From Bradyrhizobium sp. B097 (GTDB taxonomy: Bacteria; Pseudomonadota; Alphaproteobacteria; Rhizobiales; Xanthobacteraceae), in NCBI RefSeq assembly GCF_038957035.1, contig NZ_CP152412.1, positions 7,312,501 to 7,376,500 on the forward strand: a DNA stretch of 64,000 nt, in the 5' to 3' direction. The position numbers were made by a program, and so were the translations under genes. Below are positions 5,056-26,815 of this stretch, piece after piece. Position 1 is the stretch's first letter. The number at the start of each line of letters is the position of its first letter. The notes beneath the pieces are model-generated. The model saw nothing but the letters and a program-made list of their open reading frames with translations, was not told the DNA's origin and did no database searches.

Positions 5056-5084
5056 GCTGATTGTCATATTCACATTTTATAGCT

Positions 5085-5387
5085 ATGGAAATACCCCTTA
5101 AATTGAAGTCCCCGCACGATGTCTCTGCCGGAATCGCGGAGCGTGCAAAGCGGCGGCGGCTGGAGGCCAACCTGACGCAGGAAGGTTTGGCTGCGCGTGC
5201 CCAAGTGAGTCTCGGTACTCTCAAATTGTTCGAACGGACCGGCAAATCATCCGTCGAATTCCTCATAGCCATCGCATTCGCGCTCGGTGCCGAGCAGGAG
5301 TTCGAGGCCCTCTTTCCTTCCAAACCTCGAAAAACGATAGAAGACGTGATCGCCAAGCCACTGCGGCAGCGAGGACGACGAAAATGA
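5085..5387 (+). CDS. hipB: HipB-like HTH antitoxin/repressor
   Basis: 100 residues from ATG 5085 (MEIPLKLKSPHD...); a TTG 24 bases upstream is possible but starts an unlikely leader. Residues ~12-65 form an XRE-family helix-turn-helix (AERAKRRRLEANLTQEGLAARAQVSLGTLKLFERTGKSS). The C-terminal tail is basic (KPLRQRGRRK). The stop overlaps the hipA ATG by 4 bases (ATGA), the standard antitoxin-toxin coupling. Role by family: it binds HipA and represses the operon. Confidence 0.82.
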   Translation: MEIPLKLKSPHDVSAGIAERAKRRRLEANLTQEGLAARAQVSLGTLKLFERTGKSSVEFLIAIAFALGAEQEFEALFPSKPRKTIEDVIAKPLRQRGRRK

Positions 5388-6670
5388 CGAATGCCGGATC
5401 AAAGCCTTTCGAGAGCATCCAGAAGCTGTCGGTTCTGCTGGACTTCTACGGGGAGCAGATTGAGGTCGGAACACTGGCGTGGAGCAAGGAAGAACGTCGC
5501 GCTTACTTTCAGTATCATCCCGACTTCGCGGCAAAGAAACTTGCGATCTCTCCATTCAATTTGCCGTTCGTGGCAGAAGCGAAGGAAGCGCCTCATGCTC
5601 CGTTCGGTGGTCTGCACGGAACGTTTAACGATAGCTTGCCCGACGGCTGGGGAAAGCTTCTGCTGGATCGCCGGCTACAGAAGCTCGGACACGATTTCAG
5701 ACTGCTGACACCTCTCGACCGGTTGGCGTTCGTCGGCCAGAGCGGGATGGGCGCGCTGCGCTACGTTCCGGACAAGTCCTTGAGGAAGTCCGGCAACGGC
5801 GCCATAGACATCGATTGGCTCGCCGCTCAGGCTGCAGCGGTCCAGGGCGAGGTCGGCGAAGCCGACATCGACCGTCTGCTGGAAATCCAAGGCGGATCCG
5901 CGGGCGTTCGTCCGAAGATCATGATCGGTTTGAACGACAAGACCGGGACGATCGTTGCGGACAACGGAAGCGGCCTTCCGGACGGCTTCGATGGCTGGCT
6001 TGTGAAATTCAAGTCAACCGTTGATCCCGCGGAAATCGGACGGGAAGAATACGCCTACTCGCTTATGGCACGAGCCGCAGGCGTCGACATGCCGCCCACG
6101 AAGTTGATCAAGACCAATAAGGGCGTCTACTTCGCCGCCCGCAGGTTCGATCGCACGGAAAGCGGATGCGCTCACGTGGAAACCGTCAGCGGCCTCCTTG
6201 ATGCGGACCACCGAGCGCCATCCATCGATTACGATACGTTGTTGAAGGCGACGCGGGCTCTGACGCGCGACGAGCGCCATGTGCGCCAGATGTTCGTCCG
6301 GATGGTGTTTAACGTACTCGCGCGCAATCGGGACGACCACGCCAAAAACCACGCATTCCTCTTGGCCAAGGACGGGGTGTGGCATCCGACACCGGCTTAC
6401 GATCTCACACTCTCCGAAGGGCCCGGCGGCGAACACAATCTTGCCGTCGACGGTGAAGGAAAGAATCCGACCAACAAGCACATCATGAAGGTCGCCGAGC
6501 GCGCATCGATTCCGAAAGCCGAAGCCGAAAGGCTTTTCGAAATTGTTCGGAAAGCAGTCGACCGCTGGCCCGAGTTCGCGAAGCAAGCCGGACTGTCGGA
6601 AAAACACCTTCGAGAAGTCGACCTGCTTCTGAATAAACGCGGCTCCACCGCCGCAGCGTCCGTTCCCTAG
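5384..6670 (+). CDS. hipA: HipA-family serine/threonine kinase toxin
   Basis: 428 residues, usual length for the family. An N-terminal HipA_N domain precedes a kinase core. Visible motifs are a Gly/Ser loop GGSAGVRPK near residue 170, the catalytic loop NRDDHAKNHAFLL near 315, and the metal-binding AYDLTLSEG near 340. Known HipA toxins phosphorylate translation factors (GltX and others), causing growth arrest and persistence. It is coupled to hipB and sits in a block with Wadjet and a caspase-type system. The catalytic residues look complete, so it is probably active. Confidence 0.88.
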   Translation: MTNAGSKPFESIQKLSVLLDFYGEQIEVGTLAWSKEERRAYFQYHPDFAAKKLAISPFNLPFVAEAKEAPHAPFGGLHGTFNDSLPDGWGKLLLDRRLQKLGHDFRLLTPLDRLAFVGQSGMGALRYVPDKSLRKSGNGAIDIDWLAAQAAAVQGEVGEADIDRLLEIQGGSAGVRPKIMIGLNDKTGTIVADNGSGLPDGFDGWLVKFKSTVDPAEIGREEYAYSLMARAAGVDMPPTKLIKTNKGVYFAARRFDRTESGCAHVETVSGLLDADHRAPSIDYDTLLKATRALTRDERHVRQMFVRMVFNVLARNRDDHAKNHAFLLAKDGVWHPTPAYDLTLSEGPGGEHNLAVDGEGKNPTNKHIMKVAERASIPKAEAERLFEIVRKAVDRWPEFAKQAGLSEKHLREVDLLLNKRGSTAAASVP

Positions 6671-7192: not shown

Positions 7193-8041
7193 ATGATCGA
7201 AGAGCCGCCCCGCATCAAGAAATTCAGAGGCGAACTGGTGAAGGTCATTCCACGATTTCCGAACGATCGTGCCTCACTGAAACACATGCAGGAAAAGAGT
7301 CTCGGCGACCTGCTGATCGATTTCGTGAGCTGGCGATCACGTTACGTCGGCCGGCGCCCGCGAACCGTAAGCGTCGAGCTGGCCGCGCAGGCCGATCCGC
7401 GTTGGGCCGCCCATGCGGACGCGATAGAGATGTTCCTGGAAAAGGTACGAAGCGGCGAGGACCTGACGCCGCATCTTTCCATCGCGCCTCACACCAAGGG
7501 ATATGCACCAGCCGCTCGAGCCCGGAACGCTCCACCGGCTGACCGGTGGTCCGACAAGGACTTCGTGCTGAACGCGATGGGTTATCATCACTTCCATCTC
7601 GGCAAGACCATCCATCCGCGCGGTCATGTCGATCGGACGAACGATCTGATCTTCGCCGAGGTCCATCGTGACAAGTTTCACGTCATCGCGATCTTCGGCC
7701 ATGAAGTATTCGATCAAGATAGCGCCGAACGAATGCGACTTTGGTCGGCGCACGATCAAGTCGCCTTCCGCAGCGTGCCGCCCGGCTCGGTCGTGATATC
7801 GGCCCCGAATACGCAGTCCGGGCATACGCTTCAGTCGGTCCACTACGCCAGCCAATGCGCCAAGTTCATCCGGCGATTGGAGCCCCTGCTCGACGGCCCG
7901 ATCTTCGAGGCCGGACTCTATGCTCCGGATCATCAGGCGCCGCCTGAGCCGAAGTTCTCGTGGACCTTCTACCATCTCGACTTCATCGTCACCGAAGAGG
8001 TCGGGTCGACGAACTTCCTGCTCATGCGAGGCTGGAACTAG
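7193..8041 (+). CDS. Unrecognised protein with HHFHLG motif, first gene of hydrolase-caspase unit
   Basis: 282 residues, soluble, no signal peptide or membrane helix. The N-terminal ~120 residues are charged. The core (about 125-235) contains GYHHFHLG (131-137), then DLIFAEVHRDKFHVIAIFGHE (151-171), an alternating strand pattern with several His that could form a metal or nuclease-like site. I cannot assign a family. It lies 93 bases before the hydrolase gene on the same strand and is therefore probably part of one transcript with the hydrolase and caspase genes. It could be a sensor, effector or unrelated passenger. Confidence 0.7.
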   Translation: MIEEPPRIKKFRGELVKVIPRFPNDRASLKHMQEKSLGDLLIDFVSWRSRYVGRRPRTVSVELAAQADPRWAAHADAIEMFLEKVRSGEDLTPHLSIAPHTKGYAPAARARNAPPADRWSDKDFVLNAMGYHHFHLGKTIHPRGHVDRTNDLIFAEVHRDKFHVIAIFGHEVFDQDSAERMRLWSAHDQVAFRSVPPGSVVISAPNTQSGHTLQSVHYASQCAKFIRRLEPLLDGPIFEAGLYAPDHQAPPEPKFSWTFYHLDFIVTEEVGSTNFLLMRGWN

Positions 8042-8134
8042 GACGTAGGCGCGACCTGATTTCCCAAGCCGCGCGACTCGCCCCGAACGAAAGACTTCGA
8101 TGCGACGATAATTTTTGAGAATGCGGAGAGTGAC

Positions 8135-9370
8135 ATGCCGGATACCTTGCTCTTCATCCACGGAACGGGCGTTCGCAAGAGCGGCTTCGACCAAACAATG
8201 GCGCTCTTGCGTGAGGGGTTTCGCGACAAGCTGGCGATCGAGATCGAAGGTATTTGTTGGGGACCGGACCTCGGAGTCAACGTCGACGACAAGGCGATAG
8301 AGGACGTTCTACCGCTCGCCCTGGCGAAAGCCGACGAAATCGGTTCTGAGGAAATCGGCTACCGGGCGGCGCTTTGGGGGGAGCTGTTTCGCGATCCGCT
8401 TCTCGAATTGCGGATGGCCTCGATGAGACCGCCGGCCCAAAGCGATCAGGACGCCGCCAAGCCCGGAGTGCAGGCGGCGGACATCGCGATGACGGACATG
8501 GTCGCCGGGGTGGTTCAGAAAGTTTCGGATCCTCTACCGGGCGGTGTGCAGGCTCAAGCCGTGCGAGACGCTGCGCTGTGGTTGATGAAGGAGCCTCTTC
8601 TCAAGTCCGCCGCCGCAGCGACCGGCGACGCGTTGGACGAAGATCTCGTCAATGCGGTCGCACGCGCCATCGCGGCGACGGCTCTCATCGGTTACCGGAA
8701 CGAGCTCGGCACCGGTCCTAGCGCCCTCTACGTCGCTGCGGACCGCGACGCGCTCGTTAAATCCATCGTCGATCTGTTTCCGCAGACGAAAGGAATTGGC
8801 TCCTGGCTGTGGAATGGCGTAAAGGCGCTCGCCGAGGGGGTCGCCACCCATTATGGACGCGATCGGAGAACCGGGTTGATGAACGGCGTGTCTCCGGGCG
8901 TCGGCGACATCCTGCTCTACGAGCGCCGCGGTGACGACATTCTCGCAGCGATCGAGAGAAAGATCGTCGCTCTTGCCGAGCAGAACAAGCGCGTCGTCGT
9001 GCTCGGACATAGCCTCGGCGGCATCATGATGGTCGACTTGCTATCGCGCGCTCGGCAGCCCGGTCGGTTGCCGGTCGAGAAGCTGATCACGGTCGGATCG
9101 CAGGCGCCGGTGTTGTTCAAGTTCGACGCATTGGGCACGATGAGATTGAGGCAAGCGCTTCCCGCCGGAACACCCTATCGGCCATGGCTCAACATCTTTG
9201 ACCGGAACGATTTTCTTTCGTTCTGCGCGAGCCGCGCATTTCCGGGGGCGACCACGGGTATCGAGGACTTCGAAGTCGAATCGAACGTGTCCTTCCCGGA
9301 AGCGCATAGCGCCTACTTCCGTCAACCGTCATTCTACGCAAAAATTGTCGAAAGCTGGCCTAAACCGTGA
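8135..9370 (+). CDS. Alpha/beta-hydrolase (lipase/esterase-like) linked to caspase
   Basis: 411 residues from ATG 8135 with GGAGAG upstream. The start LLFIHGTG (5-12) is a typical oxyanion-hole strand. The nucleophile elbow is GHSLGG with Ser293. Candidate acid and base residues are in FDRNDF (about 350) and EAHSAYF (about 393). A long helical insertion (about 60-250) separates the two halves, suggesting a lid or regulatory domain. There is no signal peptide, so it is cytoplasmic. The next gene starts on a GTG inside this stop codon (GTGA), implying tight stoichiometric coupling to the caspase-like protein. The substrate (lipid, ester or peptide) is unknown. Confidence 0.85.
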   Translation: MPDTLLFIHGTGVRKSGFDQTMALLREGFRDKLAIEIEGICWGPDLGVNVDDKAIEDVLPLALAKADEIGSEEIGYRAALWGELFRDPLLELRMASMRPPAQSDQDAAKPGVQAADIAMTDMVAGVVQKVSDPLPGGVQAQAVRDAALWLMKEPLLKSAAAATGDALDEDLVNAVARAIAATALIGYRNELGTGPSALYVAADRDALVKSIVDLFPQTKGIGSWLWNGVKALAEGVATHYGRDRRTGLMNGVSPGVGDILLYERRGDDILAAIERKIVALAEQNKRVVVLGHSLGGIMMVDLLSRARQPGRLPVEKLITVGSQAPVLFKFDALGTMRLRQALPAGTPYRPWLNIFDRNDFLSFCASRAFPGATTGIEDFEVESNVSFPEAHSAYFRQPSFYAKIVESWPKP

Positions 9371-12051
9371 CCTTGAACGCTGACGCGATAATCATCGGTA
9401 TCGATAGATACGACCGCGCGGACTTTCCGGCATTGCCCGGCTGCGTCAATGATGCCGTCTCCGCGACGAAATGGCTGATCGCGATCGGCGTTCCGCCGGC
9501 TCGCATCATCGCCCATGTCGCGCCGCTGGACCCGACGGTATTTCCGACCGGCACCGTCCTGTTGCCAGCCAACATCGATGCCGTCTTGGCGTCGTTTGCC
9601 AAGCTTTCAAAGAGCGGAAAGGGCGACAAGCTTTTCATCTTCATGTCGGGCCATGGGAAGTCGGTGCCGGGCGCCGGCCCTGTCTTTCTCTGTCAGGACT
9701 ATCTCGTAAACGATATTACCCGTGCAAACCTCAAGATCGACGAGTACGCCGAGTGGTTTCAGAGTTGGCGCTACCGCGACCAGTTTTTGTTCTACGACGC
9801 GTGTCAGGATCCGACCGCCAGCCTGGGGCAACTCAGCAGCGTTCGTGCGATGGGTCCGGACGCTCAGCCCGGCACCTACAAACCGGATCCCGGCAACGCG
9901 TTGACCGTATGCTACGCCTGTTCTGCAGGCGAGCGGGCGTGGGCCGGTGACGGGCGCGGCGTTCTGATCCGATATTCCTTGGAGGAACTCGATCCGCAAC
10001 TATGGGCTGGCTTACAGGCCGACGATCCCGAGCAGGACGCCATCCAGTACGATTGGACGACCGGAGCGCGCATCATCGATCTGGACAGGCTCTTCACGAA
10101 CATCATCTCGCTAAAGATCTCTCAGGCGGCGAATAGCGCCCAAAAGTTTCAAACTCCGTTCTGCGAGCGCCACGGCAGAGCGCTGATCGATGGCTTCTCG
10201 CCCATCATGGAACTATCGCCCCTGCCTACAGCCGCGGTCAAGGTCGACGTCGACCCGGCCACCGCTGTCGGCGACGTACGCTCGATCAGACTGCAGTCCC
10301 ACCTGATCCCGCGCGATTGTTTCATGCCCTCGAAGAGCGCACCCTTGAAGATACCGGTCACGCTGCAGTTTCCCTTGCAGGATCTGATCAATGCCGGCTG
10401 CACGCTCGCTCGCGAAAGCGCTTGGAAGGCGGTGAACGTCCCTCTCCAGCAGAAACTCGGAACTCCGAATGTCGACATCATATTTCAATTGAGACAGCCG
10501 CCTCCCTTTTTTCCGAAGGGCACCGATGGATCGGACGAGATCAATATCGTGGTGGATCCCAGTCCGGGCGGCGGTCCAATGTCGGCGGAGATTGCCAAAC
10601 AACTCAGCCCCGCCGGCGAAATTGGCGGAGCGAAACTACCGCCGAGCCTGACATTCAGGAAGGATGCCAACGGCCCGTCACTGACCTTCAATCGCATCGA
10701 CGACAGTTCGATCCGAGATGCGCACGGTATCGCGATAGATTGGCTGAAGATCCTGAGGCGCGAGAGCCCGGGTAAAGGCGGGCACGTGGTCATGTCGCCG
10801 CTCGGACAACCCAAGAATGCCGAGCCGAACGTCCACTTCGATTTCGACAAGTCCAGCGCCACGCTGCTCGGCGGCTTTCTGAAGGATGACGAGTGCGTGA
10901 CCTTGGAGAGCTTCTCCAATGAGATGCCCTCCCGCAAGATATCGCTCCAAGACTTGGAAGACCATCCGATCGAATTGCTCGCTCCCGGCCAGCACCGGAT
11001 CACCATCGATCTACCCTGGGGCCGTTGGACGCGAAGACTGAGGGTCGACGCCAAGGTCAACACAGTGCAGTTGCCGCAGGAGATCGGACTCGAGCCACTC
11101 CGCAATCGCCACCGGCGCAACGACGTCTTCGGCCCGGAGTTGGTATGCGCCGACGAGCCCGACCTCACCGAGGCGACCGTGACACCGATAGCGGTTCGGA
11201 GAAAGGACCAATTCGACGTTTGGCTGCTTCCGGCTTTAGCGGCGCCGGTCGCGGTACTCGAGACTGAAAGCGGAATTCGCGCCGAGCCCTATTCGGAAAC
11301 TTCCCTGAGGGAGTGGGACGAGCTTCTGACGGTCGGACGATTGAACATCGTAGATCCCGCCGGCCTGATCAAAGGACTGGGCGGCAAGATCCCCGACGGA
11401 ACGGCCGAGGACTTTACTCTCCTCGCAATCGCGGCCGCATATGCAGAGTACGATCGGCGAAACTGGTCTGGTCTTCTGTCGATACTCGAGACGGTCGATG
11501 AACGCGCGCTTCGCTGTCACGATATCGGCCTGCTCAAGTTGGCGGCAGACATCGAGCGAGGAAGGATCGTAGGGAACGAGCGCGAGCACGCAATCTATGT
11601 CGGCCTCGGTCGTTTTTTCGCGAAACCGCCCGTCTTGCGCTGGGGCGTTATGTTGTTCGCCGAACTGGCCAGACAAGCGGAAATTCAACCGCCCCGGTGG
11701 ACCCTCGAGGTCGACCCGTCCTCGGTCATGACCTTGATCCGGTGGAAAAATCTCGGGCTGCCGACCTCTTGGTTCGCGGAGCCCCGCAGTCGTCGCATCC
11801 GCGTTCTGGCCGGCCACGACAAGCGATCCGCGTCGCCGCATTACCTAGAAGTCGGCTGGCTGCCGAATCTAGACCAAAGAGTGCAAGATTCAGAGGCGAG
11901 ACGGCGAGAGGTCCTAGGCGAGATCGAAGCAAACGAGGCGGAAGATCGAATCGACGCGCTCCAGAAGCAGAAACGGATGCTCGAGCAACTGGTCGAAGAC
12001 GAGGATACCGAACAGGTGCAGACACGCGATAACGACGACTCGACATGGTGA
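9367..12051 (+). CDS. Caspase-fold (peptidase C14-like) protease with long C-terminal extension
   Basis: 894 residues from GTG 9367. The N-terminal ~270 residues are a caspase/metacaspase domain: strand AIIIGIDRY (8-15), the catalytic His96 in FMSGHGKS, and Cys146 in FYDACQD, both in the canonical order and context. The remainder (about 280-894) is unrecognised. It includes a beta-rich middle and a helical part near 690-780 (LLAIAAAYAEYDRRNW...), perhaps repeat-like. The end is a charged coiled coil (about 845-885). Caspase-like proteins in bacteria act in abortive infection and regulated cell death. Fusion with recognition domains and the coupled hydrolase suggest that role here, by inference. 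Confidence 0.85.
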   Translation: MTLNADAIIIGIDRYDRADFPALPGCVNDAVSATKWLIAIGVPPARIIAHVAPLDPTVFPTGTVLLPANIDAVLASFAKLSKSGKGDKLFIFMSGHGKSVPGAGPVFLCQDYLVNDITRANLKIDEYAEWFQSWRYRDQFLFYDACQDPTASLGQLSSVRAMGPDAQPGTYKPDPGNALTVCYACSAGERAWAGDGRGVLIRYSLEELDPQLWAGLQADDPEQDAIQYDWTTGARIIDLDRLFTNIISLKISQAANSAQKFQTPFCERHGRALIDGFSPIMELSPLPTAAVKVDVDPATAVGDVRSIRLQSHLIPRDCFMPSKSAPLKIPVTLQFPLQDLINAGCTLARESAWKAVNVPLQQKLGTPNVDIIFQLRQPPPFFPKGTDGSDEINIVVDPSPGGGPMSAEIAKQLSPAGEIGGAKLPPSLTFRKDANGPSLTFNRIDDSSIRDAHGIAIDWLKILRRESPGKGGHVVMSPLGQPKNAEPNVHFDFDKSSATLLGGFLKDDECVTLESFSNEMPSRKISLQDLEDHPIELLAPGQHRITIDLPWGRWTRRLRVDAKVNTVQLPQEIGLEPLRNRHRRNDVFGPELVCADEPDLTEATVTPIAVRRKDQFDVWLLPALAAPVAVLETESGIRAEPYSETSLREWDELLTVGRLNIVDPAGLIKGLGGKIPDGTAEDFTLLAIAAAYAEYDRRNWSGLLSILETVDERALRCHDIGLLKLAADIERGRIVGNEREHAIYVGLGRFFAKPPVLRWGVMLFAELARQAEIQPPRWTLEVDPSSVMTLIRWKNLGLPTSWFAEPRSRRIRVLAGHDKRSASPHYLEVGWLPNLDQRVQDSEARRREVLGEIEANEAEDRIDALQKQKRMLEQLVEDEDTEQVQTRDNDDSTW

Positions 12052-12074: not shown

Positions 12075-12981
12075 GGCATCCCGGTTGTCGCCTGTCGGTT
12101 TACGAAATTTACCGCAGAGGCAGCTTTCGAATTGATCAAGACCTGTCGAATACGCAACGTTTTTCTGCCCCCACCGCTTTGAAGATGATGAAGCTCCTGC
12201 CTGAGGCCGACACGCCTGAAGTGCGCCTTCGCTCGGTGGCAAGCGGCGGCGAACCACTGGGTGCAGAATTGATCGAATGGGGGCATGCGACGCTTGGGGG
12301 CGCGATCAACGAGTTTTACGGCCAAACGGAGTGCAACATGGTGGTTTCTTCCTGTGCCGTGCTAGAGCCCCCGTTGCCCGGCAGAATGGGCCGGCCTGTG
12401 CCTGGCCACGTTGTCGATGTCATCGATGCTGCGACCGGCATTCGCCAAGCTGACGAGACGGAAGGCGCCCTCGCGGTTTTATCCCCCGACCCCGTGATGT
12501 TCATCGGCTATTGGCAAAATCCCGAAGCGACGCGCGACAAGTTCGTAGAAGGCCCGGATGGGAAATGGCTTCTTACGGGTGACCAGGGGGTGCGCGATGC
12601 TGAGGGGCGGCTTCGCTTCGTGGGGCGCGCTGACGATGTCATTGGCTCCGCCGGCTACAGGATCGGCCCTGCAGAAGTCGAGGATTGCCTGCTTGCGCAC
12701 CAAGCTGTGCGTCTTGCCGGGGTCGTCGCCAAGCCGGATCCGCTGCGGGGTGCGGTTGTTGCCGCTTATGTCGTGCTTAAGGATGGATATGTTGGATCAG
12801 ACGCATTGGCCGACGACATTGCAAGTTTCGTTAAGTCACGGCTAGCAGCGCACGAATATCCGCGCGTGGTACGATTTATTAATGGGATGCCCTTAACAAC
12901 CACGGGCAAAATTATTCGCTCGCTCTACGGAAGATGGCCCAGGATGAGGCAGCAGCAGAGCATGTTGCAGCGAATGGATGA
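12075..12981 (+). pseudogene. Acyl-CoA synthetase (AMP-binding), truncated and frameshifted
   Basis: Homology begins abruptly near 12075 (GIPVVACRF...TAEAAFELIKTC), just past the caspase gene, so the N-terminal half is gone. The frame breaks at about 12167-12174 (one base missing between LPP and TALKMMK). It then continues with ASGGEPLG, NEFYGQTECN (adenylate-forming motif), LLTGDQGVRDAEGRLRFVGRADDVI, SAGYRIGPAEVED, and the catalytic-Lys region TTTGKI. A second shift near 12917 moves to the likely true end LRKMAQDEAAAEHVAANG, TGA 12979-12981. The intact family makes acyl-CoA from medium-chain acids. The open frame to 13147 is an artefact. Confidence 0.8.
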
Positions 12982-13675
12982 GAGCGCAGAGGCATTGATT
13001 TGCCCGAAAGGCGTTGGTGACTATCCCAGTCGCGAGAAACGACTTCCGCGAATCGAACCTTGGAATGCGTGGATGGTCTGGACGGGCGAACTCAGGCAAG
13101 TCCAGTTGAGCTCGGACGTTGCATCCCGCGCGTCCCAGCCGACTTGACTGCTTTCCTTGAGCGCTTCACAACAGCATATGGCAACGACAAAGTCCCCAAA
13201 ATCCACCGCATTATCGGCGCGGCGGCGTCACATCAAAACACTTCGATCGCTCAGAAGCGGATCGTTGCCGTCCCGAACTTCAGCCCGGTTGCAGCCCCTT
13301 GCAACGCGACGGTATCTGGCCTGGATCAGCTCGCTTCAAAAGGAGGGCCACCTCGCCGAACGGGCGATTGATAATGCCGAGCGCCTTGGAAGCCGGACAC
13401 ACGCGGTTACATGTGCGTCCAAACTCCATCGGATCGTCTGCCGATTTGAACCCCCGATCGCTCCAATTGCGGCCGCTGGTGCGATAGCGCACGTGGCGCT
13501 TGCGGCATCCCGCGAGCGCAAGCGAGAGCTGGGAATGTTGCGTAACTCTCATTGCCTAGCGCTGGCTTCGGCTTTGTAGTACGATGCGGCGGCGCACGCT
13601 ATTGCTTGCCTCTCCCGCCTACTTCATCGGCCCGTGATTGGTTGCGCAGATCGCTAAAACGGCGCTCGATGGATG
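12982..13675. other. Intergenic, nothing recognised
   Basis: Several overlapping frames of 60-140 codons on both strands are basic and mutually shadowing. None has a start with ribosome site and recognisable motif. It may contain old insertion debris, but no transposase motif or terminal repeat is visible. Confidence 0.45.
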
Positions 13676-15166: not shown

Positions 15167-17842
15167 CTAGGCAACCGCTCTCTCCAAGAGGCGTAACGTC
15201 CGTCCCCCCAGCGGACCAAAGCTTCGCAACCGGCACGTCAACACGATGATCTGCTGCTTCTTCCCGGCGCGGCTAAGGGCGTCGAACATGCGCTGTATCC
15301 GATCATCGTCGCAGTAGACGAGCGCGTCATCGAGAATGATCGGGACCGCGGAGCCCTTTTCCGCGAGCATCGCTCCCATCGCCAGCCGAACCAGAACGGC
15401 GATCTGCTCCTGCGTGCCGTCGGACAGGCGGTCGAAGGCCTCAGCGCGTTCGCGCCGGATGCCCGTGACGGCGAAATCATCCCCAAGCTCAAGCTCTGCG
15501 CCCGGAAACAGGTCATTGAGGAACGGCTGCAGATTGCGCCGCACCGGCTCGTGGTAGCGATCGCGGCCTTCCGTCAAGCAGGCCGAGATCGTATCGCGCA
15601 AGAGCCTTAGAACCGCAACGCGCTCCTGGAGCTGCGCGCAGTACCGTTCCGCGATCGCGCGCTGTTCCTCCGCCGCAGCCGACGCTTCGCCAACCCCGTC
15701 ACCGCCGGCTGTTTGGATTTGCCCTGTGAGCCGCCCAATGTCGCGTTCGAGCTGCCGCAGCTCGTCGTTACGGTTGGTGGCGGCCTGCTCAAGCCGGTCG
15801 AAACGCGCCTGCCGGCGCTCGATCTCGTCGGCACCGGGCGCTGTTTGGCGCCGCGCCGTGAGCGTCCCTGCCGCAGTCTGGTGCACGGTCTCGGCATCCG
15901 CCACTTGGGTCACCAGCGCGGCGTCGCGCGCCGCGCGCTCATCATCCGGGCAAAGCGCGGCATCCTCGGCGATGCGGTTTCGCAAGCTTTCCAGCTTTGA
16001 TTCCGCGCCGCTCCGGGCGGCGAGAGCGGATTCCAGCGCATCGCGCTGCTGGCGTTGTGTTTCACCCAGACTTTCGCGACGAGCCTCGGCGGTCGTGCGG
16101 TCCTGCGCCAGAGACACCCGTTGCCTTTCTATCTCAGCGTTCGTCGGCAAGCGGCCGTCTTCTGCCTCCGCGATCACTGCGGCAATCGCAGCTTCCACAT
16201 CGTAAAGCGCATTCTTGAGTTTGACGATGGTAGCCTCGGGATCATCGGTCGCGTTGAGAGTCTTTAGTTGCGCGAGCGTGCCTTTACGGCTTGCTTCAAG
16301 GTCTCGGCGCTTCGCGAGAAGCGCATGCGCCTCGGTAACTGTGTCAACCCCAGCGGCTCTGAGTAGCGCAAGACGCTGCTCCTCCAGTTCGGCGCGCAGT
16401 TCCTGCCTTGGCTGGACAGCAGGCGTGATCTTGATGATGGCCAGATCAGCGACGGTGATCTTAGTGGGCGCCATGATCGCGGCGCTGTACGCCCCCTCGG
16501 CGCAAACGGAGCCGATGCGAACCTGTCCGGCTCCCTCGGGCTTCACTTCGATTGTGAGCTGGGCGGCGGCAGCTGACAATTGCGCGTCCAGCGCTGCGAT
16601 CTGCCGCTCAAGCTCATCGAGGCTTTCCACTGTCTTTGGATTGGCCTTGATTTGGGCAAACCGCGCATTCGTTTCGCGCAATTCCTCAACCGCCGTCTCA
16701 AGAGCCTTCAATTGGCGCTCTAGATCCTCCTTGCGTTGGTCACGAAGCACGGCCCCAGCAAGACGTTCAAGCTGGCGCTCGCGCGCCGAAAGCGTGTGCA
16801 GGGTCTTTTCGACGCCGACAATATCGAGCTGGGTGCCCGCAAGCACGACGCGCGCCTCCTGCTCCCTCGCTCCTTGTTCCAGTACCTCTCGCACCAGCGC
16901 GGCTTCGGTAACACGGTTGACGTCGACGCGCGCGGTGAGGTCGCGAAATTGCTTGAACCGCTGTGCGGCGACCTCAAGCCCGCGCTTGGCTCCGATCTCC
17001 TCAGCCTCGAAGCGTCGAAGCTCCTGCGCTGCAGACTGCGCTTCCGCAAGCGCTTCCTTCGCCGCGAGAAGCTCAGCGGAGGTTTGTCCCGTCGCCGCCG
17101 GATCAGTCAGGTCGCGGTGGCGGCGCCGATATTGCGCCAACTCCCGGAATTGGCTGTCGAGCGCGGCAAGCTTGCCGTGGTTCTCGGCTTCGGCGGCTTG
17201 CCAGCGCTCGACCTCCGCGATGGCTCGGTGTAACGGGCCATCGGTACGTGGCCGTTGTTCTGAGTCGGTGAGGTAGCGCTGCAGCTCCACGTTGATGTCG
17301 TCGAGCGCAAGCCTCGCCCGCTCGCCGCCGATGAGCGCTCCAACTTCGGATTCGATGGCCGCATTCATCATAGAGGACGCGCCGGTGCCGAGAACCGGAG
17401 TCGTAAAGGAAGCCCCCTGCCCAACCCATAACAAGCCGAAGGCACCATCATCAAGCGCTCGGCCGCTGCCGGGGCTCACGCCCAGAATATCCCACACCGC
17501 TTCGTCGGCCTGTTTGGACCTGGCAATTTCGCGGCCGTCTTCGGTGAGGCTCGCGCTGGGCGACCGCAGGAAAGCCTTGCGAATCACATACGCGCGTCCG
17601 TTTTGCTCAAAAGCGATCTGCACGGTGGCGGGCAATTGGCTGCCGTCCGAACCAATATCGCGAATCTCCTGCGTCCGGCTATCATGGCGGCAAAAGAGAC
17701 CGGTTCGGATGGCTTTGAACAATGTAGACTTGCCCATCTCATTGCCAGCGGCGAGAACGTTGACACCGTCGCCAAAGCCATCGACCTGCACCGGGCTCGA
17801 GAACCGTCCGAATCCCTCGACGGAAAGCGCCTTGATAAGCAT
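15167..17842 (-). CDS. YhaN/SbcC-like SMC-type ATPase
   Basis: 891 residues. The N-terminal FGRFSSP and AAGNEMGKSTLFKAI (Walker A of the Rad50/SbcC/YhaN type, about 32-46) precede long coiled-coil arms. The middle has a non-helical hinge-like segment (about 425-475). The C-terminal head has LSDGTQEQIAVLVRLA (signature, near 815) and PIILDDALVYCDDDR (Walker B, near 845). TAATG overlap with the upstream nuclease gene marks a two-gene operon. By family, the pair forms a Mre11-Rad50-like complex that processes DNA ends. YhaN-type proteins are smaller and more divergent than SbcC. A role in repair or in restriction of foreign DNA is plausible. Confidence 0.82.
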   Translation of the reverse strand: MLIKALSVEGFGRFSSPVQVDGFGDGVNVLAAGNEMGKSTLFKAIRTGLFCRHDSRTQEIRDIGSDGSQLPATVQIAFEQNGRAYVIRKAFLRSPSASLTEDGREIARSKQADEAVWDILGVSPGSGRALDDGAFGLLWVGQGASFTTPVLGTGASSMMNAAIESEVGALIGGERARLALDDINVELQRYLTDSEQRPRTDGPLHRAIAEVERWQAAEAENHGKLAALDSQFRELAQYRRRHRDLTDPAATGQTSAELLAAKEALAEAQSAAQELRRFEAEEIGAKRGLEVAAQRFKQFRDLTARVDVNRVTEAALVREVLEQGAREQEARVVLAGTQLDIVGVEKTLHTLSARERQLERLAGAVLRDQRKEDLERQLKALETAVEELRETNARFAQIKANPKTVESLDELERQIAALDAQLSAAAAQLTIEVKPEGAGQVRIGSVCAEGAYSAAIMAPTKITVADLAIIKITPAVQPRQELRAELEEQRLALLRAAGVDTVTEAHALLAKRRDLEASRKGTLAQLKTLNATDDPEATIVKLKNALYDVEAAIAAVIAEAEDGRLPTNAEIERQRVSLAQDRTTAEARRESLGETQRQQRDALESALAARSGAESKLESLRNRIAEDAALCPDDERAARDAALVTQVADAETVHQTAAGTLTARRQTAPGADEIERRQARFDRLEQAATNRNDELRQLERDIGRLTGQIQTAGGDGVGEASAAAEEQRAIAERYCAQLQERVAVLRLLRDTISACLTEGRDRYHEPVRRNLQPFLNDLFPGAELELGDDFAVTGIRRERAEAFDRLSDGTQEQIAVLVRLAMGAMLAEKGSAVPIILDDALVYCDDDRIQRMFDALSRAGKKQQIIVLTCRLRSFGPLGGRTLRLLERAVA

Positions 17843-18972
17843 TACGCAGCTTCCTTGCCGTTCTTGTTTGCGACGCGAAGAAAGAGTTCGACGAGAGCTT
17901 CCTCGGCGTGGCGCCGCTGGTCTGGCGATTGCGCGAGATCATCGCACGTGCCCTTCAGGCGATCGGCGGCTCGCGCAAGAACGCCGTCGAAGTCGATCGC
18001 TTCAAGGTCGGCCTGGGTCGGGCGCACGGCGAGTTCGGTTTGGTCGACGTCAAGGTGGAAGGCCGCCGCCTCGAGATCAACAAGACGGCGCTGCAGGTCC
18101 GCGGCTGCAGCAATGGACAACGCCCCTTCGAGCTTGAGGCGGACGATTGTGCGCGCGAGATCGGGTTCGGCGCGCAGGCGCTGGTCGAGACCGGCGCCCC
18201 CCTCAGCATCGGCCACCCGCTCGCTGCGGGTGATCCAGCGGTAGGTGCCGGTCGCGAGCGGCGTCACCGCAGGAGGGGCGCCGGCGCCAGCAATATCGAC
18301 CAGCAGCGCCGTGCCGGTCTCCTGTCGCCCGGCGCGGTCAGGCTCAGGCGTCCCGGAGTACCAAACGGAGGGGCCGACCTGCATGGTGCGGTGCCAATCG
18401 CCAAGCGCGAGATAGTCGAGGCCCGCTCGGCTCGGGCGGGCTGGATCGATCGGATTAGAGGCTTCGCCTTCCTGCCCAAAATTGACGATCGACCCGTGCG
18501 CGAGTCCGATCCGCACCGCACCTGCCGGCGTCGGCGCGGAATCCATCCACATCGTAACATCGTCATATTCGGTCTTACGGCAAAGAGGTGCCGGCATGAG
18601 GAACGCTCCGTCACCAAGAGGCGCCACAAAGGGCGAGAGATGGAGATGGACATGACCGGGCAATCCCAGCTTCGCGATGCGATCCCAAATGCCTTCTGGC
18701 CGGTGCGGATCGTGATTGCCCGGCAGCAGGTGCCACTGAATGTCCGGGAACAGCTTCATCCGCTCGATGGGGGCCCGCAGCGTGATCGGATTTGGCGCCT
18801 CACTATCGTAGACGTCCCCTGCCACGAGCACGTGGGCCACGCCGTGGGTGTGCGCGAGCTGCCCGAGCCGTTCGACCGCACCAAGACGTGCTTGCCGCAA
18901 AGCCTCCTCCTTGGCACCGAACTGCTTAAAGACTTTACCGATTTGCCAATCGGCTGAATGAATAAAACGCAT
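17842..18972 (-). CDS. YhaO/SbcD-like metallophosphoesterase nuclease
   Basis: 376 residues starting at ATG 18972, with GGGAGTGGGA just upstream. The longer start at 18984 would bury that ribosome site. Calcineurin-like motifs are visible in order: HSADWQIG (metal site I), VAGDVYD (II), LLPGNHDPH (III), GLAHGSI, and ALGDWHR (final His). This is the Mre11-type arrangement of manganese ligands. The C-terminal ~130 residues would hold the capping/dimerisation region. It overlaps the ATPase gene by one base. Expected activity is DNA exo/endonuclease working with the SMC-like partner. Confidence 0.84.
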   Translation of the reverse strand: MRFIHSADWQIGKVFKQFGAKEEALRQARLGAVERLGQLAHTHGVAHVLVAGDVYDSEAPNPITLRAPIERMKLFPDIQWHLLPGNHDPHRPEGIWDRIAKLGLPGHVHLHLSPFVAPLGDGAFLMPAPLCRKTEYDDVTMWMDSAPTPAGAVRIGLAHGSIVNFGQEGEASNPIDPARPSRAGLDYLALGDWHRTMQVGPSVWYSGTPEPDRAGRQETGTALLVDIAGAGAPPAVTPLATGTYRWITRSERVADAEGGAGLDQRLRAEPDLARTIVRLKLEGALSIAAAADLQRRLVDLEAAAFHLDVDQTELAVRPTQADLEAIDFDGVLARAADRLKGTCDDLAQSPDQRRHAEEALVELFLRVANKNGKEAA

Positions 18973-19507
18973 TCCCACTCCCAATCATGATGGTTGTAAT
19001 CTCAGTATCCAATCCACAGAGGGTGAGCGCTCCGAAAGGGCACCGGAACGGCGGACGCAGGGCCGGACCGACAATCCTCATTTCGAACTCCCGAAGGCCG
19101 CAATGGACGACCATTTGCGAGCGGTCGTCTGCAGCAACGCCTGTAAGCCGCTATTGAATAGCTAAACCCGGCCGACTCCCGGCTGCTACGCAGGGAAGGC
19201 ACAGCCTTAAGCCAGCGCATCAGCAGCACCCCTGATTGACGAGCGGCCGCAACAGCAGGTTTTGCCCCTTGAAAAACGCCCGTAGCTTCGGACCGATGTC
19301 GGCGAGGATGAAATGCGTTGGTTTCATCGAGATCTGCCTTTGTGATGCAATATGGAGGCATCATGATAGCCGCCATCGCCTACCTTCAGATCGAATGCGG
19401 CAATGGTGCCGGTTAAAGATGAACCCCATCACCGCGTACGACCCTTATCTCGTCCTTGAAGCGCGTGTTGCGTGCACGGAGCCGGGTCGACGATTTCTTC
19501 CTTCGCC
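18973..19507. other. Intergenic, nothing recognised
   Basis: It holds the probable promoter of the minus-strand nuclease operon and the end of bioD. Short frames on both strands (19002-19376, 19236-19688) are shadows without motif. Confidence 0.4.
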
Positions 19508-25302: not shown

Positions 25303-25470
25303 CTATTTCAGTGCGCCCACGGCAACATTTTGTGCGCGTGGTATTGCGCGATCGCGCTCGGCTTCACGCTCGCTGACCAATATCTGTAGATCGTAGGGCA
25401 GTGCGTAGAAGCGGTGCCGCACATGCCTGGGCCACGACCGCGGCGGATCGACCTTGGCAATGTCGTCAAG
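25303..25470 (-). pseudogene. 3' relic of an unidentified gene
   Basis: The minus strand reads DDIAKVDPPRSWPRHVRHRFYALPYDLQILVSE... to TAG at 25303-25305. Composition is protein-like, but there is no start or upstream continuation; plus-strand Fic sequences follow. Probably the tail of a truncated gene. Confidence 0.35.
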
Positions 25471-25630
25471 CGCCGATGACACCGATCGATCCGCCGTCGC
25501 CTTCTGCCAGCCGGCGCAAGCATAGGCCTCGAGGCATGGTCACTATTGGCCAAATCCTGCGGATGGGCGAGGCCGCCCACGCACCTGTCCTCAAGATTCG
25601 TGGTCGCTCTGATGCGGAGATTAGCCACGT

Positions 25631-25695
25631 TATTCTCCGCGCGATTTGCGGAGAATATCCTGACGGATTCGGGGAAAAAGCGCCATATTCTCCGC
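25631..25695. promoter_or_regulatory. Operator array before fic: three TATTCTCCGC half-sites
   Basis: TATTCTCCGC (25631-25640) and GCGGAGAATA (25648-25657) form a perfect 10-bp palindrome with a 7-base spacer. An identical third half-site lies at 25686-25695, 5 bases before ATG 25701. The layout suggests autorepression, since Fic proteins of this type end in a winged-helix domain (inference). Confidence 0.6.
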
Positions 25696-25700
25696 AAAGG

Positions 25701-26815
25701 ATGCCGAGAATGCCCGAATACATCCACCCACTAGGTGATTGGCCTCACTTTTCCTGGAATCCGGACGCCCTGGCAAGCCAGCTTGCATCCGTTCGCCTGC
25801 GCCAAGGGCAGCTCATAGGGCGGATGCAGGGGCTCGGCTTCCCCCAGCAGGAGGAGGCCGTCCTCACGACCCTGACCGAAGAAGTCCTCAAGTCCAGCGA
25901 AATCGAGGGAGAAAAACTCGACAAGGATGCGGTGCGCTCGTCGCTCGCCCGTCGCTTGGGGATTGACGCGGGTGCTTTGTCGTCCACGGATCGCAACGTC
26001 GAAGGCATTGTCGAGATGATGCTCGACGCCACTCAGAATTTCAAAGCCGAGCTCACGGCGGAACGACTCTTCGGCTGGCATGCGTCGCTCTTTCCGACTG
26101 GGCGCAGCAACATGAAGAAGATTGCTGAGGGGGCCTGGCGCGACGCCTCGGCAGGACCGATGCAGGTCGTCTCCGACGACCACGGGCGAGAGCGCGTTCA
26201 CTACGAGGCGCCGGCCGCCGAAAAACTTAACGCCGAAATGACCGCGTTTCTCGATTGGTACAACACCGAAGAGAAGATCGATCCGGTCATCAAGGCCGCA
26301 ATCGCGCATCTGTGTTCGTGACGATCCATCCCTTTGAAGACGGCAATGGACGTATCGCGCGAGCCATTGCCGACATGTCGCTTGCCCGCTCCGAAGGAAT
26401 TCCGCAGCGCTTCTACAGCATGTCCGCACAGATACGCGCGGAACGGAAGACCTACCACGACATGCTGGAGACCACCCAGCAGGGTGACCTCGACGTCACG
26501 CCGTGGCTTGAGTGGTTCCTGGGCTGCCTCGGCCGCGCCTTCAGCGGAGCCGAAATCATTGTGGCGGCCGTGCTTGAAAAAGCGGAGTTCTGGAAGCGGC
26601 ATGCCACAGCCGCAATCAACGAACGGCAGCGCGATATGCTGAACCGCCTGCTGGACGGCTTCGAGGGTAAACTGACGTCGAGCAGGTGGGCGACGATTGA
26701 GAAGTGCTCGCCTGATACCGCTCTGCGCGACATTCAGGGACTTGTCGACCAGGGTATTCTCGCCAAGGACCAAGGCGGGGGCCGCAGCACGAGCTACTCC
26801 CTCATCTCCTCGTGA
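25701..26815 (+). pseudogene. Fic-family AMP-transferase (DUF4172-Fic), frameshifted
   Basis: The N-terminal part (YIHPLGDWPHFSWN..., EVLKSSEIEGEKLDKDAVRSSLARRLG, the 'SSEIEG' inhibitory-helix-like element) is the DUF4172 module. The Fic core follows, with LFPTGRSNMKKIAEGAWR. A single missing base at about 26313 (CTGTG-TTC) stops the frame exactly before the catalytic motif. The motif itself, HPFEDGNGRIAR, is intact in the next frame, which ends at 26815 with a winged-helix-like C-terminus (DTALRDIQGLVDQGILAKDQGGGRSTSY). Restoring one base gives a normal ~370-residue protein. It could be a recent inactivation or an assembly error. Confidence 0.85.

Follow-up and report, generated by a model that had tools for sequence, protein, structure and literature searches.

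The window analysed here is a stretch of 64,000 nucleotides from Bradyrhizobium sp. B097 (contig NZ_CP152412.1, positions 7,312,501 to 7,376,500), in which the gene of a caspase-family protease begins within the stop codon of an alpha/beta hydrolase gene. An earlier note had described these two genes, together with the gene preceding them, as a three-gene unit. All three open reading frames (ORFs) are present on the plus strand as described: an HHFHLG protein of 282 amino acids (7193-8041), a serine alpha/beta hydrolase of 411 amino acids (8135-9370), which is the candidate effector, and a caspase-family (C14) protease of 894 amino acids (9367-12051). The GTGA overlap was likewise confirmed by reading the letters directly as ACCGTGACC, with the GTG start of the caspase at 9367-9369 lying over the hydrolase TGA at 9368-9370. 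The hydrolase and the caspase are a genuine, widespread pair, and the first gene is an independent neighbour outside it.

Active sites and the C-terminal tail

The hydrolase matches Abhydrolase_6 in Pfam (E = 3.1e-6) and, judged by its sequence, combines the GxSxG elbow, acid and histidine expected of an alpha/beta serine hydrolase. The GHSLGG elbow reported earlier is present at Gly291-Gly296, and an HGTG motif lies close to the N-terminus. His292, Ser293 and Asp359 are found in 118 of 118 aligned relatives and His391 in 117. This conservation points to Ser293 (codon 9011-9013) as the nucleophile, and to Asp359 (9209-9211) and His391 (9305-9307), both assigned from conservation alone, as the likely acid and base of the triad. 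Hydropathy scanning, a crude test, detected no membrane segment in hydrolase or caspase (hydrolase maximum, 1.38), and both proteins are presumably cytosolic.

Residues 7-198 of the caspase match Peptidase_C14 (E = 2.8e-11; 44 bits against a cut-off of 21.4), as expected of a caspase or metacaspase, and no other Pfam family matches the protein up to E 1. The earlier description of a His96/Cys146 dyad followed by about 600 unassigned residues is thereby upheld, and the dyad is conserved: among 67 caspases, His96 (codon 9652-9654) occurs in all 67 and Cys146 in 66, accompanied by Asp144 in 64 (Asp144-Ala145-Cys146 codons, 9796-9804) and Asp29 in 59. The catalytic part, residues 1-270 (9367-10176), is metacaspase-like, with weak profile matches to metacaspases in the PDB (E = 0.03 for the window family and E = 1.2e-5 for a broad family). 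In the MCA2 alignment of the window family, the aspartate of the motif GCCND falls opposite Asp29 of the caspase; in MCA2, Asp95 and Asp211 form the S1 pocket for basic residues. The window caspase is predicted to cut after Arg or Lys, as metacaspases do. PHROGs returned no match for the pair and NCBIfam only matches below its cut-offs.

Both genes are under purifying selection. Compared with their nearest relatives, found in genome G171 (84% identity for the hydrolase and 82% for the caspase), the ratio of nonsynonymous to synonymous substitution rates (dN/dS) is 0.084 for the hydrolase and 0.151 for the caspase; the nearest named relative of the caspase, at 83% identity, is from B. elkanii. 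The dS of the caspase against G171 is uneven, at 1.36 in residues 1-270 but 0.46 in the tail, a difference that may stem from past recombination.

The C-terminal region of the caspase, residues 276-894 (10192-12051), has no Pfam family. A crude propensity plot describes it as beta-rich up to about residue 600 and helical between about 640 and 790, and its sole PDB match is a phage coat protein (E = 0.14), which we take as chance.

Pairing across genomes

Scanning a collection of species genomes with the hydrolase alignment gave 218 relatives, the best 80 of which were used to count pairs. In 68 of these 80 loci, a caspase domain begins between 3 and 601 bases past the hydrolase stop; the count of loci with a caspase after the hydrolase rises to 72 when a broader profile is used. 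No adjoining caspase was detected in L008, L016, L034, L061, L063 and L069; L039 has a short, remnant-like caspase match, and L038 ends about 400 bases past the hydrolase. The loci belong to Cyanobacteriota, Actinomycetota, Chloroflexota, Pseudomonadota, Acidobacteriota and Gemmatimonadota. The two proteins also co-vary. For 67 pairs, the pairwise distances of the hydrolases and those of their caspase domains have a correlation of 0.968, where the highest value among 2000 permutations was 0.271; a hand-picked subset of 37 pairs, from which most of the close cyanobacteria were omitted, gave 0.83 (best permutation, 0.228). The part of the proposed unit that joins hydrolase and caspase is therefore well founded, and it is the first gene that has to be removed from it.

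Within the genus, hydrolase matches occur in 25 of 195 genomes, six of them spanning at least 390 residues and the other 19 at most 284. The six near-full-length hydrolases (the window's own genome, G171, G161, G055, G002 and G104) are all adjoined by a caspase ORF, as are three of 20 loci with partial matches (L088, L090 and L093, by the broad profile); the remaining 17 partial-match loci have no caspase, and most look like generic hydrolases. Hydrolase and adjoining caspase are thus present in nine of the 195 genomes. In searches across the order, which scored few candidates per genome and whose negatives are weak, the hydrolase profile matched in full in the window's own genome and over about 240-250 positions in G411 and G406, and the caspase profile matched in full in the own genome only; G411 and G406 supplied two more pairs (loci L138 and L139) with a caspase ORF adjoining the hydrolase. 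The own genome holds at least 12 other C14 matches (an incomplete figure, since the search missed the window's own caspase) and one such hydrolase, and none of the eight C14 loci examined there contains the hydrolase.

The distribution of the HHFHLG protein is different. A profile of this protein matched in none of the 80 hydrolase loci, which were searched together with as much as 10 kb of flanking sequence. It occurs in five of the 195 genus genomes (own, G016, G035, G041 and G143), and the own genome alone belongs to both this set and the hydrolase-caspase set; G041 has the protein and a partial hydrolase match, but no adjoining caspase. In the closest pair, that of G171, the upstream gene is another one, a large gene of SpvB/TcdB type (contig 1, L124:4545-12374; assigned by Pfam name only). 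A genuine system of three genes, in which the HHFHLG protein would act as sensor or toxin, would fit the shared strand, the 93-base gap to the hydrolase and a weak, partial match of residues 28-172 to the PADLOC model PD-T4-7 (E = 3.2e-6). Set against the co-occurrence counts and the different upstream gene of G171, such a system is hardly credible, and we reject the three-gene unit on these counts. PD-T4-7 is reported to work by abortive infection, in the manner of a toxin-antitoxin system (Vassallo et al., 2022; PMC9519451); the HHFHLG protein resembles it over residues 28-172 and differs in that the match is weak and partial and gives it no place in the pair. Pfam has no match for this protein. 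Relatives of it are found on four plasmid records and on two IMG/VR contigs (L168:7959-8840, 59% identical; L169:7989-8864, 41%), so that the family can be phage- or prophage-borne.

Judged from their sequences, different signal modules sit on one effector pair. In a Pfam tally of 67 caspases, made up of the window caspase and 66 of the 68 found next to hydrolases (the near-copy L003 and the shortened L013 were left out), 28 carry NB-ARC, 12 VMAP-C, seven EAD2 and five TPR domains. Downstream of the caspase, genes for TPR proteins follow in two cyanobacterial loci (L010 and L017) and genes for MoxR-like AAA proteins in L044 and L050. The window is a distinct, self-contained variant of this arrangement, its caspase having a tail of about 600 residues without a Pfam family, VMAP-C or a P-loop, and its lineage lacking a conserved third gene. 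In a hydrolase tree of 71 rows, with types assigned by purpose-built profiles and a P-loop pattern (18 rows were typed as "other"), the 11 rows with a window-type tail form one clade, with support of 100/99 and in 100% of 200 bootstrap trees. The clade unites the window and G171 with two Methylobacterium loci, metagenome-assembled genomes of Xanthobacteraceae, Nitriliruptorales and Chloroflexi, three Streptomyces and one Actinoplanes. The tail is conserved throughout the clade, and none of the 11 members, window included, has the P-loop pattern. When hhalign was used to compare the tail with the C-terminal regions of 15 relatives, of which 12 had been typed as VMAP, the probability was 0.1%. 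No third gene is conserved across the 11 rows, and shared flanks are limited to the three Streptomyces loci and the near-identical L002 and L003; one cluster of neighbouring genes links L004, L006 and L027, the two members scanned being GGDEF and EAL proteins.

Other extensions were seen on individual caspases. Both Methylobacterium proteins (L002:10860-15065 and L003:11227-15432, identical at 1397 of 1401 positions) end in an almost complete Cpn60 chaperonin domain that retains the DGTTT motif (residues 873-1374 in L002; E = 8.6e-78). A Cpn60 tail is likewise present in P0016, a relative from a metagenome, where DSGRGANTA, aligned by eye, stands at the position of DGTTT. No description of a caspase-chaperonin fusion was found in the accessible text of the Canu report (PMC12799240). 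Three further relatives, P0018, P0019 and P0020, are annotated with C14 and PF04828, bear the name S-(hydroxymethyl)glutathione synthase at their source and are extended at the C-terminus in a way that the window caspase is not.

Proposed order of events and its alternatives

We tentatively favour, while placing it a little short of probable, a two-gene, translationally coupled, cytosolic effector cassette in which the tail senses or oligomerises, the caspase acts on the hydrolase and the hydrolase harms the cell. The tail would replace the NB-ARC/STAND NTPase, or the VMAP-C domain and partner genes, of the relatives, and would most likely receive a signal or drive oligomerisation. Once activated, the caspase, as a predicted Arg/Lys cutter, would act on the co-encoded serine hydrolase, which would then release or gain an esterase- or lipase-type activity and damage the cell in an abortive, conflict-type response. 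The signal-type modules vary on the caspase, and the hydrolase is the partner that stays constant. The likeliest chain would run from signal to tail to caspase to hydrolase, in analogy to the pro-nucleases that trypsin-like proteases and caspases activate (PMC12799240). We infer the translational coupling, the sensing by the tail, the direction of control and the lipid target. That the pair forms a minimal immune switch, with an NTPase-free caspase using its built-in sensor to activate a co-encoded pro-lipase by Arg/Lys cleavage, is possible if somewhat doubtful; as part of this idea, which we hold with equally limited confidence, the cassette would have been joined in at least three ways, to STAND modules, to VMAP and to the stand-alone tail, in some cases with a chaperonin domain.

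Where the caspase might cut is suggested by two Lys/Arg-rich stretches of the hydrolase. Residues 236-252 (8840-8890), a candidate caspase target or a structural segment, contain Lys or Arg in 118 of 118 hydrolases against 97.8 expected, at a density of 0.215 compared to 0.099 overall, and Arg244 and Arg245 within them are conserved in 91% and 97% of the aligned sequences. The second candidate is the loop right after the nucleophile elbow, residues 304-316 (9044-9082), which varies in length from 9 to 15 residues and contains Lys or Arg in 112 of 118 sequences (81.2 expected; density, 0.205). Among the 11 segments tested, residues 336-349 and 210-222 also held Lys or Arg in clearly more sequences than expected.

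Several observations weigh against the favoured order of events. The loop of residues 95-110 has no Lys/Arg excess (88 of 118 sequences; 92.4 expected), and the enriched segments are gate candidates only, given that a structural role fits their conservation as well; for this reason, the sequence leaves the direction of control undecided. The co-variation shows co-inheritance rather than contact, because shared genome ancestry contributes to it. Searches of the plasmid collection with the caspase and of the phage collection with the hydrolase both came back empty. In addition, no enrichment of defence genes around the pair was visible with PADLOC (E <= 1e-15): about seven of 116 neighbouring ORFs matched, compared with a similar number of 111 control ORFs, which came from ten regions of one genome (G000) and constitute a weak control. 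The neighbours were drawn from 19 of the 80 loci, both flanks of the G171 pair and the initial 22 kb of the window. Exclusion of ORFs of more than 900 amino acids and of genes directly 3' of the caspase left 148, from which 116 were chosen randomly. Matches among them were to Cas12f/Cas12u (two ORFs, perhaps TnpB-like), Csx1 (two), JetD (the window's own), IetA (one) and DrmD (one), and those among the controls to DRT, mads and reverse-transcriptase models. The association with nearby defence genes across genomes, which the earlier note had proposed as a check, thus found no backing in this small test with its single-genome control.

Control could also run in reverse: the hydrolase would regulate the protease, perhaps by taking off an acyl or ester group, and the executioner that cuts many proteins would be the caspase. 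In the counted pairs the hydrolase gene lies upstream, and the co-variation fits either direction. The variable signal modules, however, sit on the caspase, which would therefore come early in the chain, and in the tested analogue Canu it is the caspase that acts on its partner, according to the portion of the report at hand (PMC12799240); we consider reverse control unlikely. A similarly low probability is given to parallel effectors, which the tail would bring into one complex and which would attack separate cell targets with no mutual cutting. The hydrolase gate remains a candidate only, and the accessible text of Kaur et al. suggests only joint operation of the two proteins (PMC7159879), both of which agree with parallel action; the close adjacency and strong co-variation suggest contact, although a complex without cleavage would fit these as well.

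As for the purpose of the cassette in which caspase acts on hydrolase, the NB-ARC/STAND or VMAP modules to which relatives' caspases are fused are those commonly met in predicted conflict systems, and the pair may be presumed to act against phage or other invaders. Viral contigs scanned with the caspase gave no match, and 15 plasmid records carry distant hydrolases (29-39% identity). One IMG/VR contig (L167:7995-15813) has a hydrolase, a caspase and ORFs of 329 and 1211 amino acids in a row, and resembles a VMAP ternary locus in size and order alone.

The surroundings of the pair in the window are mixed. Wadjet and hipBA genes were correctly noted nearby: jetC and jetD lie at 33-2602, with jetC represented by its C-terminal part only, as its ORF starts 33 bases into the window, and hipA, together with a helix-turn-helix gene located where hipB would be expected, occupies 5061-6670. 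Downstream of the caspase, the larger genes are, in order, an AMP-binding fragment, a YopJ-family gene and, on the other strand, a Rad50-like/SbcD-like pair. The first of these (12179-13147) matched only the C-terminal part of an acyl-CoA ligase (AMP-binding profile positions 286-384, followed by the C-terminal domain) and therefore looks like a truncated remnant. The last (15167-18984, minus strand) consists of genes for a Rad50-like ATPase and an SbcD/Mre11-like nuclease with a one-base overlap. The ORF at 25401-26321 encodes a DUF4172-Fic protein that matches the SoFic model of PADLOC (E = 1.1e-15), and nolX, coding for NolX, is located elsewhere in the window.

NolX and the YopJ-family gene would be in keeping with a housekeeping or symbiosis role, in which the hydrolase and protease form a stress or signalling pair or are products of a symbiosis region delivered to the plant; the lack of defence-gene enrichment points the same way, and sporadic spread also fits niche genes. 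However, the relatives extend to cyanobacteria, actinobacteria and chloroflexi and include fusions to NB-ARC, VMAP-C and EAD2 domains, and the presence of the pair in just nine of 195 genus genomes argues further against such a role, which we regard as distinctly improbable.

Relation to known systems

Lamassu, which has subtypes named after a hydrolase and a protease, was rejected as a relative, as the pair has no LmuA match; PADLOC did match LmuB (E = 4.2e-11), and this match is the Rad50-like gene on the other strand. The caspase-NB-ARC proteins among the relatives (28 of 67) share with the window the position of the hydrolase upstream of the caspase. In contrast to them, the window caspase has neither an NB-ARC match nor a P-loop, and the TPR genes found downstream in cyanobacteria (L010 and L017) have no counterpart in the window.

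The combination of the two enzymes has been described for VMAP systems of the MoxR-vWA ternary type. As far as the accessible text goes, the gene neighbouring a VMAP with a caspase domain always encodes an alpha/beta hydrolase, a related hydrolase is mentioned in GAP1-N1 systems, and hydrolase and caspase are suggested merely to operate together (Kaur et al., 2020, eLife; PMC7159879); a later paper of the same authors lists alpha/beta hydrolases among predicted effectors acting on membrane lipids (2021; PMC8195603). The window shows the pairing of the 2020 study, a hydrolase of this family adjoining a caspase gene: the 80 loci and the hydrolase tree both include VMAP-linked members, and the caspase catalytic domains are homologous (hhalign probability, 99.8%). 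Unlike VMAP systems, the window has another C-terminal region of about 600 residues and a clade of its own, and no VMAP-C, MoxR or vWA was found. Membership was rejected given that the window caspase lacks VMAP-C in Pfam, that the hhalign comparison failed to relate the tail, and that no MoxR-vWA genes follow 3'. No mention of a stand-alone lineage with this tail was found in the accessible text of either paper (PMC7159879; PMC8195603), and it may still have been published elsewhere.

In Canu, the caspase has been shown to activate its partner enzyme, trypsin-like and caspase proteases activating a co-encoded pro-nuclease in the accessible part of that study (Science, 2025; PMC12799240). Together with the VMAP description of 2020 (PMC7159879), this removes the novelty that the earlier note had seen in a two-enzyme system. 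In both Canu and the window, the gene of a caspase-family protease that is extended at its C-terminus adjoins that of another hydrolytic enzyme. Canu's partner is an MBL-fold nuclease encoded downstream, whereas that of the window is an alpha/beta serine hydrolase encoded upstream; no MBL-fold nuclease is among the nine larger proteins scanned between 5061 and 18984. Furthermore, no Ig-like domain was identified in the window tail, beta-rich by crude propensity, and the window pair is known from its sequence only; no experimental test of the pair was found among the open-licence PMC papers searched.

Bacterial caspases that switch on a partner enzyme have, in the accessible text, been shown for nucleases (PMC12799240). 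Where a caspase is linked this tightly to a serine hydrolase, the predicted death effector is one directed at lipids or esters, which would extend the parallel to animal cell death. Which enzyme controls which is the question left by the published description of the pairing, as far as its accessible text goes (PMC7159879), and the stand-alone lineage is the simplest place to test it, given that it seemingly consists of two genes and no NTPase. If the pair is indeed the minimal immune switch considered above, which is somewhat doubtful, it would give bacteria a caspase-to-membrane route to cell death comparable to caspase-gasdermin and Canu.

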